33,374 nucleotides of DNA, from NCBI GenBank assembly GCA_012517955.1, contig JAAYTW010000322.1, positions 1 through 33,374 on the forward strand, written 5' to 3'. A program made the position numbers and the translations under genes. This document shows positions 1,120 to 22,600 of this stretch, one piece after another (the stretch's first letter is position 1; each line of letters opens with the position of its first letter). The DNA comes from Candidatus Zixiibacteriota bacterium. GTDB taxonomy: Bacteria; Zixibacteria; MSB-5A5; UBA10806; 4484-95. The notes beneath the pieces are model-generated. The model made no database searches, had not been told where the DNA came from, and saw nothing but the letters and a program-made list of their open reading frames with translations.

Positions 1120-1680
1120 TCAATTTCCCAGTTTGCTTTTAATTTCGGCCACTTCCGCCGATAATTGATCCACTTTCTTAGCCAGCTCGTCGATTTTGAT
1201 AATAAGATTGAACTTGTTCATGGCCGATTCGACCTGTTTCTCGACCGAATCTTTAATCTTCTCGGTTGACTTGTCGAATTTATCGGCCATCTTTTTGATA
1301 GCTTCGGCTTTTTCGGTTTGGGTCATCTCCCCTTTTTTCACCAGTTCGTCGAGCATCTCTTCGGCCTTTTCTTTGGACAGATTGACCGCTCCGATTGCCG
1401 CCAGCATTAGTTTCTTGGCTACGTCCATGACATTAGCTCCTCTCTTCAACAGAAGTTGGACAATTACATTATCGTCATTTTTGGAATCATTGTCACTTTT
1501 ATTTGACAGCGCCCAGGCCAGCGTTTGAACCGTGATATCGTTGCCGGTCGCATTATCGATTACCTTGACCTCCAGCCCGCTATTAACCAGCCGAGCAATC
1601 TCGTCGATAGTGATTACCTTCCGATTTTCGGTATCGTAGAAAGTACGGTTTTTGTAACGTTTTATCAATCTCATTATCAA
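1120..1680 (-). CDS. PHA accumulation regulator-type N-terminal domain (PhaR/PHB_acc_N-like) fused to a phasin-like coiled-coil C-terminus
   Basis: RLIKRYKNRTFYDTENRKVITIDEIARLVNSGLEVKVIDNATGNDITVQTLAWAL matches the PhaR N-terminal DNA-binding domain pattern. The C-terminus (AKKLMLAAIGAVNLSKEKAEEMLDELVKKGEMTQTEKAEAIKKM...) resembles phasin/granule-associated proteins. Start may be Met3. Confidence 0.8.
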   Translation of the reverse strand: MIMRLIKRYKNRTFYDTENRKVITIDEIARLVNSGLEVKVIDNATGNDITVQTLAWALSNKSDNDSKNDDNVIVQLLLKRGANVMDVAKKLMLAAIGAVNLSKEKAEEMLDELVKKGEMTQTEKAEAIKKMADKFDKSTEKIKDSVEKQVESAMNKFNLIIKIDELAKKVDQLSAEVAEIKSKLGN

Positions 1681-5242: not shown

Positions 5243-7249
5243 ATGAAAAAAGTAATTTTATTGGTCGTTCTTTGCGCCGCCGCGATTGCTTATGGACAAA
5301 ATATCCAGTATTACTCCTCGGCGCTCTGGACCGAAGCGAAGGATATTGAAGTATCCGGAAACTATGCCTATGTAACCTTTTATAATTGTTTTGCTGTTCT
5401 TGATATCAGCAACTTAAGCAACCCTCGCTTGGTTGCTAAAGTGCCATTTACATATCCCTGCGGCAATCTTGACCTTTACAATAACTACGCCATCGTGGCC
5501 AACCATGAAGCGGGCGTTCAGATTATTGATATCAGCAATCCCCTAAATCCAGTAAGAGTTGCGTATCGTCCAACGTTGGGCAAGGCGGTTGATGTCGATG
5601 TCATGGGTTCAAACCTTTATGTGGCCGATTTAGAAGCCGGCTTGACGATTCTTGATATTTCAAACCCGCTGATGCCCGCCTGGATTACCACATTCAATAC
5701 TCCAAACGAGGCTTGGGGCGTCGATTTGGTCGGTAATTACGCGTATGTCGCCGACGGTGATTCCGTGTTGGTGATAAACATCTCCAACCCAGCCTCGCCG
5801 ATGCGAACGGGAGCCTACAATACCGATGGTTGGGCGATCGCTATCGTTATCCAGGGAACTATCGCCTATGTATCGGATACCTACAATGGAATGTTGCTGA
5901 TAAATATCAATAACCCCGCGAATCCCAGTTTGATTTCGCAGTATCCGGGGATGTACACGACCAGAGTGGCGTTACAGGGTAACTACGCGTATGTAACCGA
6001 CCTTGTAGCCGGATTGGAAATCGTAAATGTAATCAATCCGGGAAGCCCTATCAGAATGGGCGGAATCACGACTAATGGTCAGGCAAACTCGGTCGTTGTC
6101 AACCCCAATTATGCGTTCGTGGCGGATGGCCCCACCGGAGTCGATATTATCAACATCAACGATCCGGCGAACCCGAATCTCGTCAGTGAATTTTTTACCA
6201 GCTACAGCTACAAGGCGATTACCGATCTTTCATTCTGCTATGTGGCTTGTTGGGATGCCGGGCTTCAAATTATCAATATAAGCGACAGAAACAATCCGGT
6301 GTTCGTATCACGGTTAGACACGCCTGGCAAAGCGATGGATTTGGCCAAGAGCGGCAATTTCGTGTATATCGCCGATAGACAAAACGGCCTGGTTGCGGCA
6401 AATGTATCAAATCCGGCCACTCCAACTTTAGCCGATGGTTACGATACTCCTGGTTTCGCCCAAGCGGTTGATATTTACTGCAGTTTCTGCTATGTGGCTG
6501 ATTACACATCGGTGCAGGTTATAAGTATCACCAATCCCAATAACTTGGTCTACACGACTCAATTGACACCTTCCGGCAACCCGATAGACGTTTTCGTTAA
6601 CGGAAACAGATTGTATGTGGCTTGCGAAACCGGCGGGTTATATATCTATTCGCTGGTCGATCCCGCCAATCCCACCCTTCTGGGCAGTTATCTGGCTGAT
6701 GGCAACGTGCGAAAAGTATGTGCCGAGGGCAACTATGCCTATCTTGGAGTCGATGGGCACGGGATGGAAATCGTTGATGTGACCGACCCCGCCAGCGTGA
6801 TTTTCAAATCGAGTTTCGCCACAGAAGACAACATTTACGATTTGTTCTTCATGTCAAATTTCGTGCATGTGGCTCAGGGTATCGGCGGTTACACTGTTTT
6901 AAATGTAATCAACAAAGAACATATCACCAGGGCCGCGCATTACGATTCGCCGGGTCTGGCGATGGGTGTAACAGTTTACAACGACATAACCTATTTGGCC
7001 GACCGACTTTCCACGATTCTGCTGTTCTTCCAGGATTTTACGCCGGGCGATGTTAATGGCGACGGCAGTATCACCCCTGCCGATGTTACCTACCTGGTGC
7101 GATATTTGAAGGGACTTGGCCCCGCGCCGGATCCACTCTTAAGAGGCGATTGCAACGGCGATTGTGTCGTCAACACGGCTGATGTAACATATTTGGTAAG
7201 ATATCTGAAAGGTCTCGGCCCGGCGCCCATTAGAGGCGATTGCAGGTAA
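5243..7249 (+). CDS. Secreted LVIVD-repeat beta-propeller protein with C-terminal dockerin-like domain
   Basis: Signal peptide MKKVILLVVLCAAAIAYGQ. Many ~40-aa repeats of the form NYAYVADxxxGLxIIDISNPxNPxxxxxY. C-terminal GDVNGDGSITPADVTYLVRYLKGLGPAP / GDCNGDCVVNTADVTYLVRYLKGLGPAP. Confidence 0.9.
   Translation: MKKVILLVVLCAAAIAYGQNIQYYSSALWTEAKDIEVSGNYAYVTFYNCFAVLDISNLSNPRLVAKVPFTYPCGNLDLYNNYAIVANHEAGVQIIDISNPLNPVRVAYRPTLGKAVDVDVMGSNLYVADLEAGLTILDISNPLMPAWITTFNTPNEAWGVDLVGNYAYVADGDSVLVINISNPASPMRTGAYNTDGWAIAIVIQGTIAYVSDTYNGMLLININNPANPSLISQYPGMYTTRVALQGNYAYVTDLVAGLEIVNVINPGSPIRMGGITTNGQANSVVVNPNYAFVADGPTGVDIININDPANPNLVSEFFTSYSYKAITDLSFCYVACWDAGLQIINISDRNNPVFVSRLDTPGKAMDLAKSGNFVYIADRQNGLVAANVSNPATPTLADGYDTPGFAQAVDIYCSFCYVADYTSVQVISITNPNNLVYTTQLTPSGNPIDVFVNGNRLYVACETGGLYIYSLVDPANPTLLGSYLADGNVRKVCAEGNYAYLGVDGHGMEIVDVTDPASVIFKSSFATEDNIYDLFFMSNFVHVAQGIGGYTVLNVINKEHITRAAHYDSPGLAMGVTVYNDITYLADRLSTILLFFQDFTPGDVNGDGSITPADVTYLVRYLKGLGPAPDPLLRGDCNGDCVVNTADVTYLVRYLKGLGPAPIRGDCR
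7046..7249 (+). other. Dockerin-like double repeat (Ca-binding F-hand type) within the LVIVD protein
   Basis: GDxNGDGxxxxxDVxYLVxYLKG duplicated with a 33-residue period. Confidence 0.85.
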
Positions 7250-7269
7250 TAATACAAGGAGGTATTTAT

Positions 7270-7926
7270 TTGATTAAGAATTGCTCGATTGCGTTCGGCG
7301 CGATTCTACTGGCCATGATTTTGGTGATGGGATGCGCTAAAAAACAACCGCCTCCCAAACCGGTTTTGCCAAAAGGCAATGTTGTATGGACAGAAAAAGC
7401 GGTCGCTAAGCCGGGTGAGACTTTCGCCCTGAAAGTTTATATAGCCACTATCGATACCCTGGCAGGCGTGCAGATTCCGCTGTTTTTCAGAAACGATAAT
7501 ATCAAGTTGATTTGCGATTCGGTCAGCTTTGAGGGTGGTTTGCTTGAAGATTTCATGTTTCATGATGTCAAAATACCGCTGACCTGCCCCCTATGCGGCG
7601 CTAAATACGATATGTTCGATAACCCGCCCAAGGAGCCGGGCAAATGCGATAAAGACGGCTCGGAATTAGTTCAAAGCGACCAGGCCGTGTTCTTTATGGC
7701 AATCGCGACGATTGACCCCAAACGCGACGTTAAGCCGATATATCCCGGCGAGGGGCTTCTGGCCACGGTTTATTTCACCGTACCTAAAGATTCGCCCAAA
7801 GGCGTGGTTCCCGTTACGCGCGGGATGATTCCTCACCCGACCGTAAGCTTGGTCTTTTCGATTTGGAACGAGCGCGGTGATGACCTCAACGGACAGCTCG
7901 CTGACGGCTCGATTGAAATTCAGTAA
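7270..7926 (+). CDS. Cohesin-like lipoprotein with internal adenylate-kinase-LID-like zinc motif
   Basis: TTG start at 7270 with AGGAGG at about 7257-7262 (the listed ORF starts at 7240). Lipoprotein signal ..GAILLAMILVMGC-AKK. Cohesin-like beta pattern KPGETFALKVYIATIDTLAGVQIPLFF...CDSVSFEG...PGEGLLATVYFTVPKDSPKG. Insert CPLCGAKYDMFDNPPKEPGKCDKDGSEL at 7585-7668. Confidence 0.72.
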   Translation: MIKNCSIAFGAILLAMILVMGCAKKQPPPKPVLPKGNVVWTEKAVAKPGETFALKVYIATIDTLAGVQIPLFFRNDNIKLICDSVSFEGGLLEDFMFHDVKIPLTCPLCGAKYDMFDNPPKEPGKCDKDGSELVQSDQAVFFMAIATIDPKRDVKPIYPGEGLLATVYFTVPKDSPKGVVPVTRGMIPHPTVSLVFSIWNERGDDLNGQLADGSIEIQ

Positions 7927-7946: not shown

Positions 7947-7980
7947 AACCTCGGATTGCCAACAATCCGAGGTTTTTTCA
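7947..7980 (+). terminator. Rho-independent terminator downstream of the cohesin-like lipoprotein gene
   Basis: AACCTCGGATT-GCCAAC-AATCCGAGGTT followed by a T run: 11-bp perfect stem, 6-nt loop. Confidence 0.92.
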
Positions 7981-7997
7981 TGTAATACAATATCGGG

Positions 7998-8264
7998 CTA
8001 TTTACTTGCTTCGCCGGATTTCGCTTTAGATGTAACAACCTCCGGCTTGCTGTTTTCGGCGGCCGCCGCCTTTTTATATTCGGCTGAACGATAATCAGTG
8101 GCGTAGAATCCTGTGCCCTTTAGAAGGAATCCGGCGCCGCCGCTGATTACGCGTTCTGCTTTCCCCTGACAACGCGGGCACTCCTCAATCGGCGGGTCAG
8201 TCATCTTCTGGAAAGCCTCGAACGCATCGCCGCATTTAAGGCATTTGTACTGGTAGGTAGGCAT
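7998..8264 (-). CDS. FmdB-family zinc ribbon regulatory-type protein
   Basis: MPTYQYKCLKCGDAFEAFQKMTDPPIEECPRCQGKAERVISGGAGFLLKGTGFYATDYR: classic FmdB putative regulatory protein. Confidence 0.93.
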   Translation of the reverse strand: MPTYQYKCLKCGDAFEAFQKMTDPPIEECPRCQGKAERVISGGAGFLLKGTGFYATDYRSAEYKKAAAAENSKPEVVTSKAKSGEASK

Positions 8265-8707
8265 CAGACCCTCTCCTGAACTTCTTTGGAATACAGTTTT
8301 CTGATATCATTTTCATCGATAAACTGCTTGAAACGCTCGATTGTTTCGAAGTTACGTCTCGGCAAAAACCGGATAATCCAATTAGTAGTCATCGGCGAAA
8401 TACTGATAACCGGTATGCCGCGATTGTAAGCCTCCCAAACCTCAATGGAGGTTCCCAGCGAGGCCTGCGGAAGGTAGGCTATCAGCAGGTCCGAATTATA
8501 AACCTCATTAAGGTGCTTGAAAAAAGTCTGCCTGGCTTGCTCATCATTGTAGTGCACCGACATTTCATGCCCCTCGAAAGGATCGAATAATTCAATATCC
8601 GGATATCTGCTCCGCACGATATCTTTTATAGTTTCACGATAGTTTTGGGCATGAATATCCGTCCCCAGATGAGACCCTTGAATGATGCCCGCGAAAAATA
8701 TTTTCAT
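8264..8707 (-). CDS. Nucleoside 2-deoxyribosyltransferase-like (DNPH1/Rcl-like fold) protein
   Basis: MKIFFAGIIQGS start, ELFDPFEGHE, SDLLIAYLPQASLGTSIEVWEAYNRGIPVISISP pattern. 1-nt stop/start overlap (TGATG) with the fmdB-like gene. Confidence 0.62.
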   Translation of the reverse strand: MKIFFAGIIQGSHLGTDIHAQNYRETIKDIVRSRYPDIELFDPFEGHEMSVHYNDEQARQTFFKHLNEVYNSDLLIAYLPQASLGTSIEVWEAYNRGIPVISISPMTTNWIIRFLPRRNFETIERFKQFIDENDIRKLYSKEVQERV

Positions 8708-9096
8708 CTGTTACTCACAATTAAAAAAAGCCAATTGGCCGCCGCCGCCAAACCTATCAAAATCTTTCCAAAAAGCGCGGCCTTAGGGCTTAGTTTCACC
8801 TCTATTTTAATATGCAATATAAATTCGAAAAGTTTCAAAAGCGAGAATAAAAAAAGGCCGACACAAAAGGTTACCAAAAGTGGATTAAAGCCGAACATCC
8901 CGACTATCCGGCCGCCATATAAGGCGTTGACGGCCCGAGAGGCTCCGCAAGCAAGGCAAGGATAGCCGGTAATCTGATGAAACGGACAGGCGAAATGCGG
9001 CAGGAATGGCCAGATGACGACCATTCCAATCAGTAAAATGCCCCATATTACATGGATAGATAAAGGTTGATTATGCGATTTGATGAAGATACGCAT
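8704..9096 (-). CDS. DUF2752 family membrane protein
   Basis: CPFHQITGYPCLACGASRAVNALYGG signature plus TM segments. ATGA overlap with the downstream gene. Confidence 0.85.
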   Translation of the reverse strand: MRIFIKSHNQPLSIHVIWGILLIGMVVIWPFLPHFACPFHQITGYPCLACGASRAVNALYGGRIVGMFGFNPLLVTFCVGLFLFSLLKLFEFILHIKIEVKLSPKAALFGKILIGLAAAANWLFLIVSNR

Positions 9097-9097
9097 T

Positions 9098-9922
9098 TTA
9101 ACGCGTCATCCCTAAGAATCCAATCAGCCAAAACAGTGAAAAACAACAACATGCGCATACTATTAAGGTAGGCAATATCACGACCAGAATCGCATTGCCG
9201 ATACTGGTCTTATGAACCTTGCTTATCCCGATAATCGTCAAGACGATTTGCCAGATTGGAGCGATAATATCGCCGATAATTGGTATGATTCGGAAAAAAG
9301 CCGGTCCTTCGGAATAGGTCACGATGCGAAACGAGGCTTCATAATCATGTTTTTCCCAGCCGAATATGGATAGCAACAGATGAATAATCCCCGACCAGAT
9401 AAAAAATCCGGCGGTGGCCGCAAACGGAAATATAAACAACGAAATTATATTCGAATATGATTGAATTCGTTGATTAAACTCGACAAAATCATAGTCAAAC
9501 GAACTAGACATCGACGGCAGCCACTTGGCGAAATCGAACATCTGGTTGAAAATCTGCGAATAGGTTACTTGGAAAATCGTTCCGATAAACCCTATAATAA
9601 GCGCATAAAGTAAGGGATTGCCGATTCCGCCCTTAACCGACATCTTTTCGAAAAATTTCTGTGGGTTAAAACAACTCTCTTTCCAGGTTTCGAACAACGC
9701 CCCCAAAAATCCTAAACTCTTCTTATCCTCCCAGGGAACGTAATAAATCGGCGGTTGTTCCGATGGCGGGGTTTGCGATTGACCGGTGTTACCCGATTCC
9801 CCCAAGCTTACAACAGGGGCTGTCTCGCTTGTGGCTTCAAATGGAGAACCGCAATAGGGACAATATTTTACGCCGGATTCCGATTCGGATGTATGACCGC
9901 AACGTTGGCAATACTGGATCAT
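9098..9922 (-). CDS. YIP1-family membrane protein with N-terminal zinc ribbon
   Basis: MIQYCQRCGHTSESESGVKYCPYCGSPFE zinc ribbon, then WxxxCFNPQKFFEKM...several TM helices, YIP1-like. ATG at 9922 has GAGG upstream; the listed ORF extends to a GTG at 9934. Confidence 0.78.
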   Translation of the reverse strand: MIQYCQRCGHTSESESGVKYCPYCGSPFEATSETAPVVSLGESGNTGQSQTPPSEQPPIYYVPWEDKKSLGFLGALFETWKESCFNPQKFFEKMSVKGGIGNPLLYALIIGFIGTIFQVTYSQIFNQMFDFAKWLPSMSSSFDYDFVEFNQRIQSYSNIISLFIFPFAATAGFFIWSGIIHLLLSIFGWEKHDYEASFRIVTYSEGPAFFRIIPIIGDIIAPIWQIVLTIIGISKVHKTSIGNAILVVILPTLIVCACCCFSLFWLIGFLGMTR

Positions 9923-10186
9923 AGGCAACCTCACTTTTATTGTTTTAACCCATATTCGCGATTATTATAGAAAATATCGTGGCATTTTTAAAGGAAATTT
10001 ATTCAAATATCCGGTTTTACAATTTCCATGTAAATATAATAGTTCAAAAATCACGGTCCTCATAGCCAAATAGTGAACTTCGGATGCCCAACGATTCGAT
10101 TGATTATCAGCCGCCTGATAACAACAAGGCGTGTTTTGTGTCCCTACATGTAAATTATATTTATAACATGCTTTAGGCTTATAACG

Positions 10187-21961: not shown

Positions 21962-22600
21962 TCAGGCGACAGCTTCCAATATCGCGGCCGCTACCGAATC
22001 GGGCGGCTCGGCGCCGTTTATTTCAATCAGTAACCCTTTTTGCCTGTAGTAATCTTCGACGGCTTTGGTTTGCTGGTGGTAAACTTCCAGTCGTCTGCGG
22101 ATTACTTCTTCGGTATCGTCGGAACGCTGTCGTAAGCCTTCCCCACAATTATCACATAATCCGGCTTTCTTCGGCGGCCGCGAATTCAGGTTGTAATCCA
22201 ATCCACATTTAGGGCAATAATACCTGCCCAACAACCTGGAAATCAAAACTTCGTCGCCCACCGAAAGGTAAAGCACGGCATTCAGTTGTATTCCCATCCC
22301 CCGCAACAGCTCATCCAAGCCCTCGGCCTGAGGGGCTGTACGAGGAAAACCATCAAATATAAATCCATTCGCTCTTTTGCGCAATATGTCTTTAATCATC
22401 TCCAAAATTAATTTATCTGGAACAAGGGCGCCGGCATCCATAAAAGTTTTAGCCTTAATGCCAATTTCCGAGCCTCGCTCGATTTCCGCGCGAAGAATAT
22501 CTCCGGTAGAAAGATGTTCCAAACCGAGCTTCTCAGCCAGGTTTTTGGCTTGGGTTCCTTTTCCGGAACCCGGGGGGCCCAGAAAAACCAATCGCATCAA
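21962..22600 (-). CDS. adk: Adenylate kinase with Cys4 zinc-type LID
   Basis: LVFLGPPGSGKGTQAKNLAEKLGLEHLSTGD, FIFDGFPRT, LID CPKCGLDYNLNSRPPKKAGLCDNCGEGLRQRSDD. Confidence 0.97.
   Translation of the reverse strand: MMRLVFLGPPGSGKGTQAKNLAEKLGLEHLSTGDILRAEIERGSEIGIKAKTFMDAGALVPDKLILEMIKDILRKRANGFIFDGFPRTAPQAEGLDELLRGMGIQLNAVLYLSVGDEVLISRLLGRYYCPKCGLDYNLNSRPPKKAGLCDNCGEGLRQRSDDTEEVIRRRLEVYHQQTKAVEDYYRQKGLLIEINGAEPPDSVAAAILEAVA

Follow-up and report, generated by a model that had tools for sequence, protein, structure and literature searches.

A module homologous, as judged from sequence, to the zinc lid of adenylate kinase (Adk) lies within the predicted cohesin domain of a protein encoded on a 33,374-nucleotide stretch of DNA from a Candidatus Zixiibacteriota bacterium (the window). 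Relatives have the same protein without the lid, and because they do, we conclude that a piece of an enzyme is here reused in a protein predicted to be exported. The residues that hold the zinc fold of the lid are retained, the arginines that flank it in Adk are gone, and the gene lies next to one encoding a dockerin-bearing protein, the probable binding partner of the cohesin.

The insert and its host protein

The insert (window 7585-7668, forward strand; residues 106-133 of the host) translates to CPLCGAKYDMFDNPPKEPGKCDKDGSEL, and the lid of the genuine adk in the same window to CPKCGLDYNLNSRPPKKAGLCDNCGEGL. As the preliminary description had reported, the two align without gaps, with 13 of 28 residues identical and positions 1, 4, 21 and 24 in register; these putative ligand positions read C,C,C,D in the insert and C,C,C,C in the window's adk lid. 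The likeness to Adk lids that it had drawn from this alignment is borne out by Pfam ADK_lid (PF05191), which matches the host at 45.5 bits (E=6.7e-12; cut-off 26.6) and the genuine adk at 47.2 bits, the match in the host covering residues 115-145 of a 228-residue open reading frame, 31 aligned residues without a gap. Also as first described, the host has no other Adk feature: no Pfam ADK core, AAA or P-loop family matches it, no GxxxxGK[ST] motif occurs, and the NCBIfam adk models match it weakly, in the lid or the stretch around the lid. Two loci exceed the ADK_lid cut-off in the whole genome of the window (G000), namely the insert and the genuine adk lid; a third, weak match (G000:C144) belongs to a DUF134-like DNA-binding protein with a zinc ribbon and was judged unrelated.

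Was the lid transplanted, or did it arise by convergence? The preliminary description had offered both, and of the two, homology stands and convergence does not. When the insert alone is searched against the PDB, the nearest match is a Bacillus-type Adk lid, that of 3dl0 (17/28 identical, E=1.4e-6), and the Adk lids are followed by weak rubredoxin matches over the first 12 residues of the insert; a plasmid search gave a sole match, an adk lid of B. subtilis. Zinc knuckles arise often, and the insert does share a CPxCG knuckle with rubredoxin-like zinc ribbons, but the rubredoxin match is weak and confined to those 12 residues, the second half of the insert being Adk-specific. A convergent CxxC...CxxD knuckle that merely resembled an Adk lid would also have to account for 31 gapless residues at 45.5 bits, with matches at the non-ligand signature positions Y8, P14-P15-K16, G19, D22, G25 and L28, and we consider it extremely improbable. 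With the zinc LID of long-form Adk (PF05191; B. subtilis type, PMC4227292) the insert shares a 28-residue zinc module in register, with the spacing C-x2-C-x16-C-x2-D and the core Y, PP, G, CD and L; it differs in that its host is predicted to be exported and has no kinase core, and in lacking the flanking arginines and Asn9, which would leave it no nucleotide-closing role.

The ligand set of three Cys and one Asp that the preliminary description had attributed to Adks of the B. subtilis type is documented for the B. subtilis lid (PMC4227292). As a sign of Bacillus-type ancestry, the Asp carries no weight: of 88 gap-free Adk lids from the phylum, 47 have D at position 24 and 39 have C, so that Asp at this position is common in Adks of the phylum and gives no pointer to a Bacillus donor, a candidate that we dropped.

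The host reading frame is open from 7240 and probably starts at TTG 7270, which follows AAGGAGGT by six bases and the stop of the upstream gene by 20. Its product is probably an exported single-cohesin protein, and a lipoprotein in the species of the window; the lipobox noted previously can be read by eye in the window protein (VMGC) but is lacking in the orthologs, which look ordinarily secreted. By prediction, the fold is that of a cohesin, a nine-strand jelly roll, in keeping with the cohesin-like character first ascribed to it. AlphaFold2 models, which rest on 8 sequences (two with the lid), are beta sandwiches with pLDDT 74.7 for the window protein and 79.8 for its ortholog in Zixibacteria 4484_95 (G003), the lid region of both having a block-mean pLDDT of about 80-91. 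For both models the best PDB matches in Foldseek are cohesins (prob 1.00; E between about 1e-8 and 1e-7; target-normalised TM of about 0.7-0.76). A PDB sequence search with the host family returned no significant cohesin, and the fold search alone found them. Against Pfam Cohesin (cut-off 24.1 bits), the orthologs of G002 and G003 score 29.5 and 26.6.

The placement of the insert between beta strands, proposed earlier, agrees with DSSP of the model, which gives strand 4 (81-86), a short helix (91-94), a strand at 97-101, the lid and then strand 5 (139-145), numbered by us after the cohesin scheme. In the predicted fold the lid lies in the beta4-beta5 hairpin, adjoining the face by which cohesins bind dockerins. 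The host thus resembles the cohesin module (PF00963; non-cellulosomal, for example, A. fulgidus 2xdh) in its predicted jelly roll, in best PDB matches that are all cohesins and in the dockerin-bearing gene adjoining it, and differs in the 28-residue zinc lid between strands 4 and 5 and in a score below the Pfam cut-off (14.1 of 24.1 bits). The features of the locus are collected in Table 1.

Table 1. Features of the cohesin locus and of the comparator adk in the window
Feature	Position	Strand	Basis or remark
LVIVD beta-propeller protein with C-terminal dockerin, probable partner	5243..7249	+	directly upstream; Pfam LVIVD 1.1e-93, Dockerin_1 6.1e-10
Dockerin domain of upstream gene	7043..7207	+	Pfam Dockerin_1
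Shine-Dalgarno sequence AAGGAGGT for TTG 7270	7256..7263	+	read directly
Host gene: signal peptide and single predicted cohesin domain with Adk lid insert	7270..7926	+	218 aa from TTG 7270; Foldseek cohesins prob 1.00
Signal peptide with lipobox-like VMGC (Cys22)	7270..7335	+	read directly; ortholog alignment
ADK_lid insert, between cohesin strands 4 and 5	7582..7674	+	profile positions 3-33 of 36; DSSP of model
Putative zinc ligand 1, Cys106	7585..7587	+	register with Adk lids
Putative zinc ligand 2, Cys109	7594..7596	+	register with Adk lids
Putative zinc ligand 3, Cys126	7645..7647	+	register with Adk lids
Putative zinc ligand 4, Asp129 (Cys in G003 ortholog)	7654..7656	+	register with Adk lids
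Inverted repeat then T run, probable terminator between convergent genes	7947..7978	+	read directly
Lid of genuine adk, comparator	22133..22216	-	within adk gene 21962-22600 (-)

Orthologs, constraint and history

We compared the locus across nine genomes of the order, four in the family of the window (f1: G000, G001, G002 and G003) and five in a second family (f2). The genome G003, from another genus of f1, has a full-length syntenic ortholog, 53% identical to the host, with an insert, CEKCKAEYDKVNAPPKKAGICDKCGGKL, that agrees in site and register with the one in the host (ADK_lid 42.1 bits, E=7.9e-11; cut-off 26.6). Conservation of the ligands in homologs, to which the preliminary description had tied the zinc lid, is seen in this single lid-bearing ortholog, which keeps C,C,C,C. 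We rejected an assembly artefact because 4484_95, an independent MAG, shares the architecture in synteny. Of 132 phylum genomes scanned, 98 have an ADK_lid match over the cut-off and two, G000 and G003, have a second one, both times in the cohesin ortholog. The other seven orthologs, in G001, G002 and the five f2 genomes, are lid-free and have a short loop at the site.

Several further features of these loci can be recorded. The lid-free loops of G002 (L037 7514-8065) and G001 (L044 3581-4126) exceed those of f2 by 4-6 residues, an excess that could be left over from a lost insert or could simply be normal variation in loop length. Among the cohesins, that of G000 is set apart by a branch much longer than that of G003 and by a lipobox-like motif that no other has. 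At window 7998-9934, four small convergent genes, whose order with the cohesin gene is conserved in f1, encode an FmdB-like zinc ribbon protein (Zn_ribbon_8), a nucleoside deoxyribosyltransferase-like protein (match below cut-off), a DUF2752 protein and a Yip1 membrane protein with an N-terminal zinc ribbon. Elsewhere in the window (1120-1680), one open reading frame is, by its matches, a PHA granule regulator/phasin fusion, one stretch fitting PHB_acc_N and another Phasin.

The 88 gap-free Adk lids of the phylum also served for a comparison of constraint with the two inserts. Both inserts conserve C1, C4, Y8, P15, C21, D22, C/D24, G25 and L28, with all four ligand positions (C,C,C,C/D/E) intact; the ligand and core positions are conserved and the surface positions variable. 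Absent from both are the arginines at profile position 1 (present in 92/92 phylum adks) and position 34 (88/88), and Asn9, found in 84/88 Adk lids, is replaced in both by an Asp that occurs in 0/88. Arginines around the Adk lid contact nucleotide phosphates, so the inserts would have lost the substrate side of the lid and kept its zinc fold. On this sequence comparison, the insert is a lid by descent and fold and not a working Adk lid, because the flanking arginines are absent from both inserts.

Could the insert instead be adk DNA that came in as a neutral passenger and is now decaying? Such decay would suit the absence of the lid in one sub-lineage and the identity of the insert between the two carriers (14/28), which is no higher than that of the rest of the mature protein (86/154). 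Against it, the ligands are retained in two genera, and when an unconstrained insert was simulated at the measured branch length of the host, 1 of 2000 runs reached the lid score of the G000 insert, a fraction to be read as a rough guide, the simulation being crude (uniform rates, background replacement). The branch length was supplied by a host tree built without the insert columns, in which the cohesin of G000 has 1.05 changes per site and that of G003 0.05. We regard a decaying passenger as highly improbable; the lid is most likely under selection.

The species tree from nine concatenated proteins (2013 columns) is (G000,(G003,(G001,G002))) with full support, a clade of G000 and G003 being rejected (p-AU 0.0025), and hence implies one gain on the family stem with one loss before G001 and G002, or two gains, or transfer. 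Of these histories, one gain is favored, because the register is equal at both ends and Asp9 is common to both inserts. Two independent insertions of an adk lid, in G000 and in G003, or transfer of the operon between these lineages, would fit their separation in the species tree as well as the lid-only tree, which is unresolved, leaves the inserts ungrouped and has the G003 insert nearest the Adks of its own subfamily. Yet the boundaries and register of the inserts are identical at both ends, they share an Asp9 that no Adk of the set has, and their grouping is not rejected on the 28 columns of the lid (p-AU 0.31); we judge separate gains or transfer to be quite unlikely. The idea that the lid is a recent copy of the adk of the same genome does not hold, since 43/84 nucleotides are identical between the two.

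The gene pair and the proposed role

The preliminary description of this locus had missed both the insert-free orthologs and the gene directly upstream, which encodes an LVIVD beta-propeller protein with a C-terminal dockerin. This gene or its ortholog adjoins the cohesin gene in 7/9 genomes of the order (G000, G003 and the five of f2), the orthologous products being 50-66% identical over their whole length, and this adjacency makes the LVIVD-dockerin protein the probable binding partner of the cohesin. The genomes of G001 and G002 lack it: their best matches are partial paralogs (about 31-35%), and rlmN abuts the cohesin gene in an otherwise unchanged order, the arrangement that deletion of the dockerin gene in place would leave. 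Lid and dockerin gene are both missing in these two genomes, a joint absence that amounts to a single evolutionary occasion. The five f2 genomes, by contrast, keep the dockerin gene beside that of a lid-free cohesin, and hence the pair as such can do without a lid. That the dockerin gene might be specific to the two lid carriers proved wrong, as it adjoins the cohesin gene in all five f2 genomes too. In G003 and three f2 genomes, though not in the window, a second dockerin-bearing repeat protein (534 aa; L035 9869-11473) is encoded upstream of the pair.

What might a kinase lid do on a cohesin? In C. thermocellum, Asn37 and Asp39 are known as recognition residues of the cohesin (PMC5772552). 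In crystal structures the dockerin binds the 8-3-6-5 sheet of the cohesin (PMC5429695; PMC5934362), and the ScaC cohesin of R. flavefaciens has an extra beta4-beta5 helix raised toward the dockerin (PMC5429695); together these observations provide a basis for a lid that tunes dockerin binding. The host and ScaC have in common an extra element between strands 4 and 5, which in ScaC alters the dockerin-binding plateau; it is an alpha helix in ScaC and, in the host, a zinc module from an unrelated enzyme. From sequence, predicted fold and this analogy, we propose, with confidence evenly balanced, that the lid, homologous to that of Adk and inserted into the beta4-beta5 hairpin, acts as a zinc knuckle tuning how the cohesin binds the dockerin encoded upstream. 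The gene would encode an exported single-cohesin protein carrying the Adk LID as an inserted zinc knuckle, in which Cys106, Cys109, Cys126 and Asp129 would bind one zinc and make the lid a rigid knob. Less certainly than it binds zinc, this knob may tune how the cohesin engages the dockerin carried by the LVIVD propeller, because the beta4-beta5 hairpin borders the dockerin-binding sheet; the lid would do no nucleotide chemistry. Counting against the proposal, the host has Gln and Pro at the positions that we align with Asn37 and Asp39 of C. thermocellum, so that the binding of a dockerin by this cohesin is itself putative.

Alternatively, the lid could cap the cohesin with a hairpin pinned by zinc, which would do no more than stabilise the fold and would take no part in partner binding. 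Conserved ligand and core positions beneath a variable surface would suit such a cap, and the title of a study cited in PMC7967156 (Perrier 1998) links engineered zinc in an Adk lid to thermal stability. Seven orthologs, however, manage with a short loop, the dockerin face adjoins the site, and G001 and G002 lack lid and partner alike; we find a stabiliser alone somewhat unlikely. If, on the other hand, zinc occupancy gated the cohesin face, the lid would be a metal-responsive switch that made attachment of the propeller metal-dependent, a role compatible with the intact ligand set of both carriers, with an extracytoplasmic protein and with a position between strands 4 and 5. Among the observations made here there is no sign of regulation, though, and zinc sites like those of the Adk-lid type are usually tight and structural, which speaks for regarding a switch as very unlikely.

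The tuning of dockerin binding that we propose could extend further: the grafted kinase zinc lid may have remodelled dockerin recognition such that attachment of the propeller, a surface protein, depends on zinc. This extension we advance tentatively and think rather doubtful; were it true, the insert-free orthologs and the lineage lacking both lid and partner would be natural controls.

An enzyme part outside its enzyme

In the literature searched (most subscription papers lay outside its reach), we found no report of an Adk lid outside Adk or of a zinc LID insertion. What is new is the combination: zinc module and fold are each known, but for this site and this compartment we found no report of the module. 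The Adk lid is the textbook moving part of an enzyme; here it lies outside Adk, in a protein predicted to be exported. Its fold-bearing residues have been kept and its substrate-side residues are gone, a natural experiment that would separate two kinds of constraint. Because related genomes offer the protein in both lid-bearing and lid-free form, it can be tested directly how a beta sandwich accommodates a small zinc module and what the module contributes to the specificity of cohesins for dockerins.
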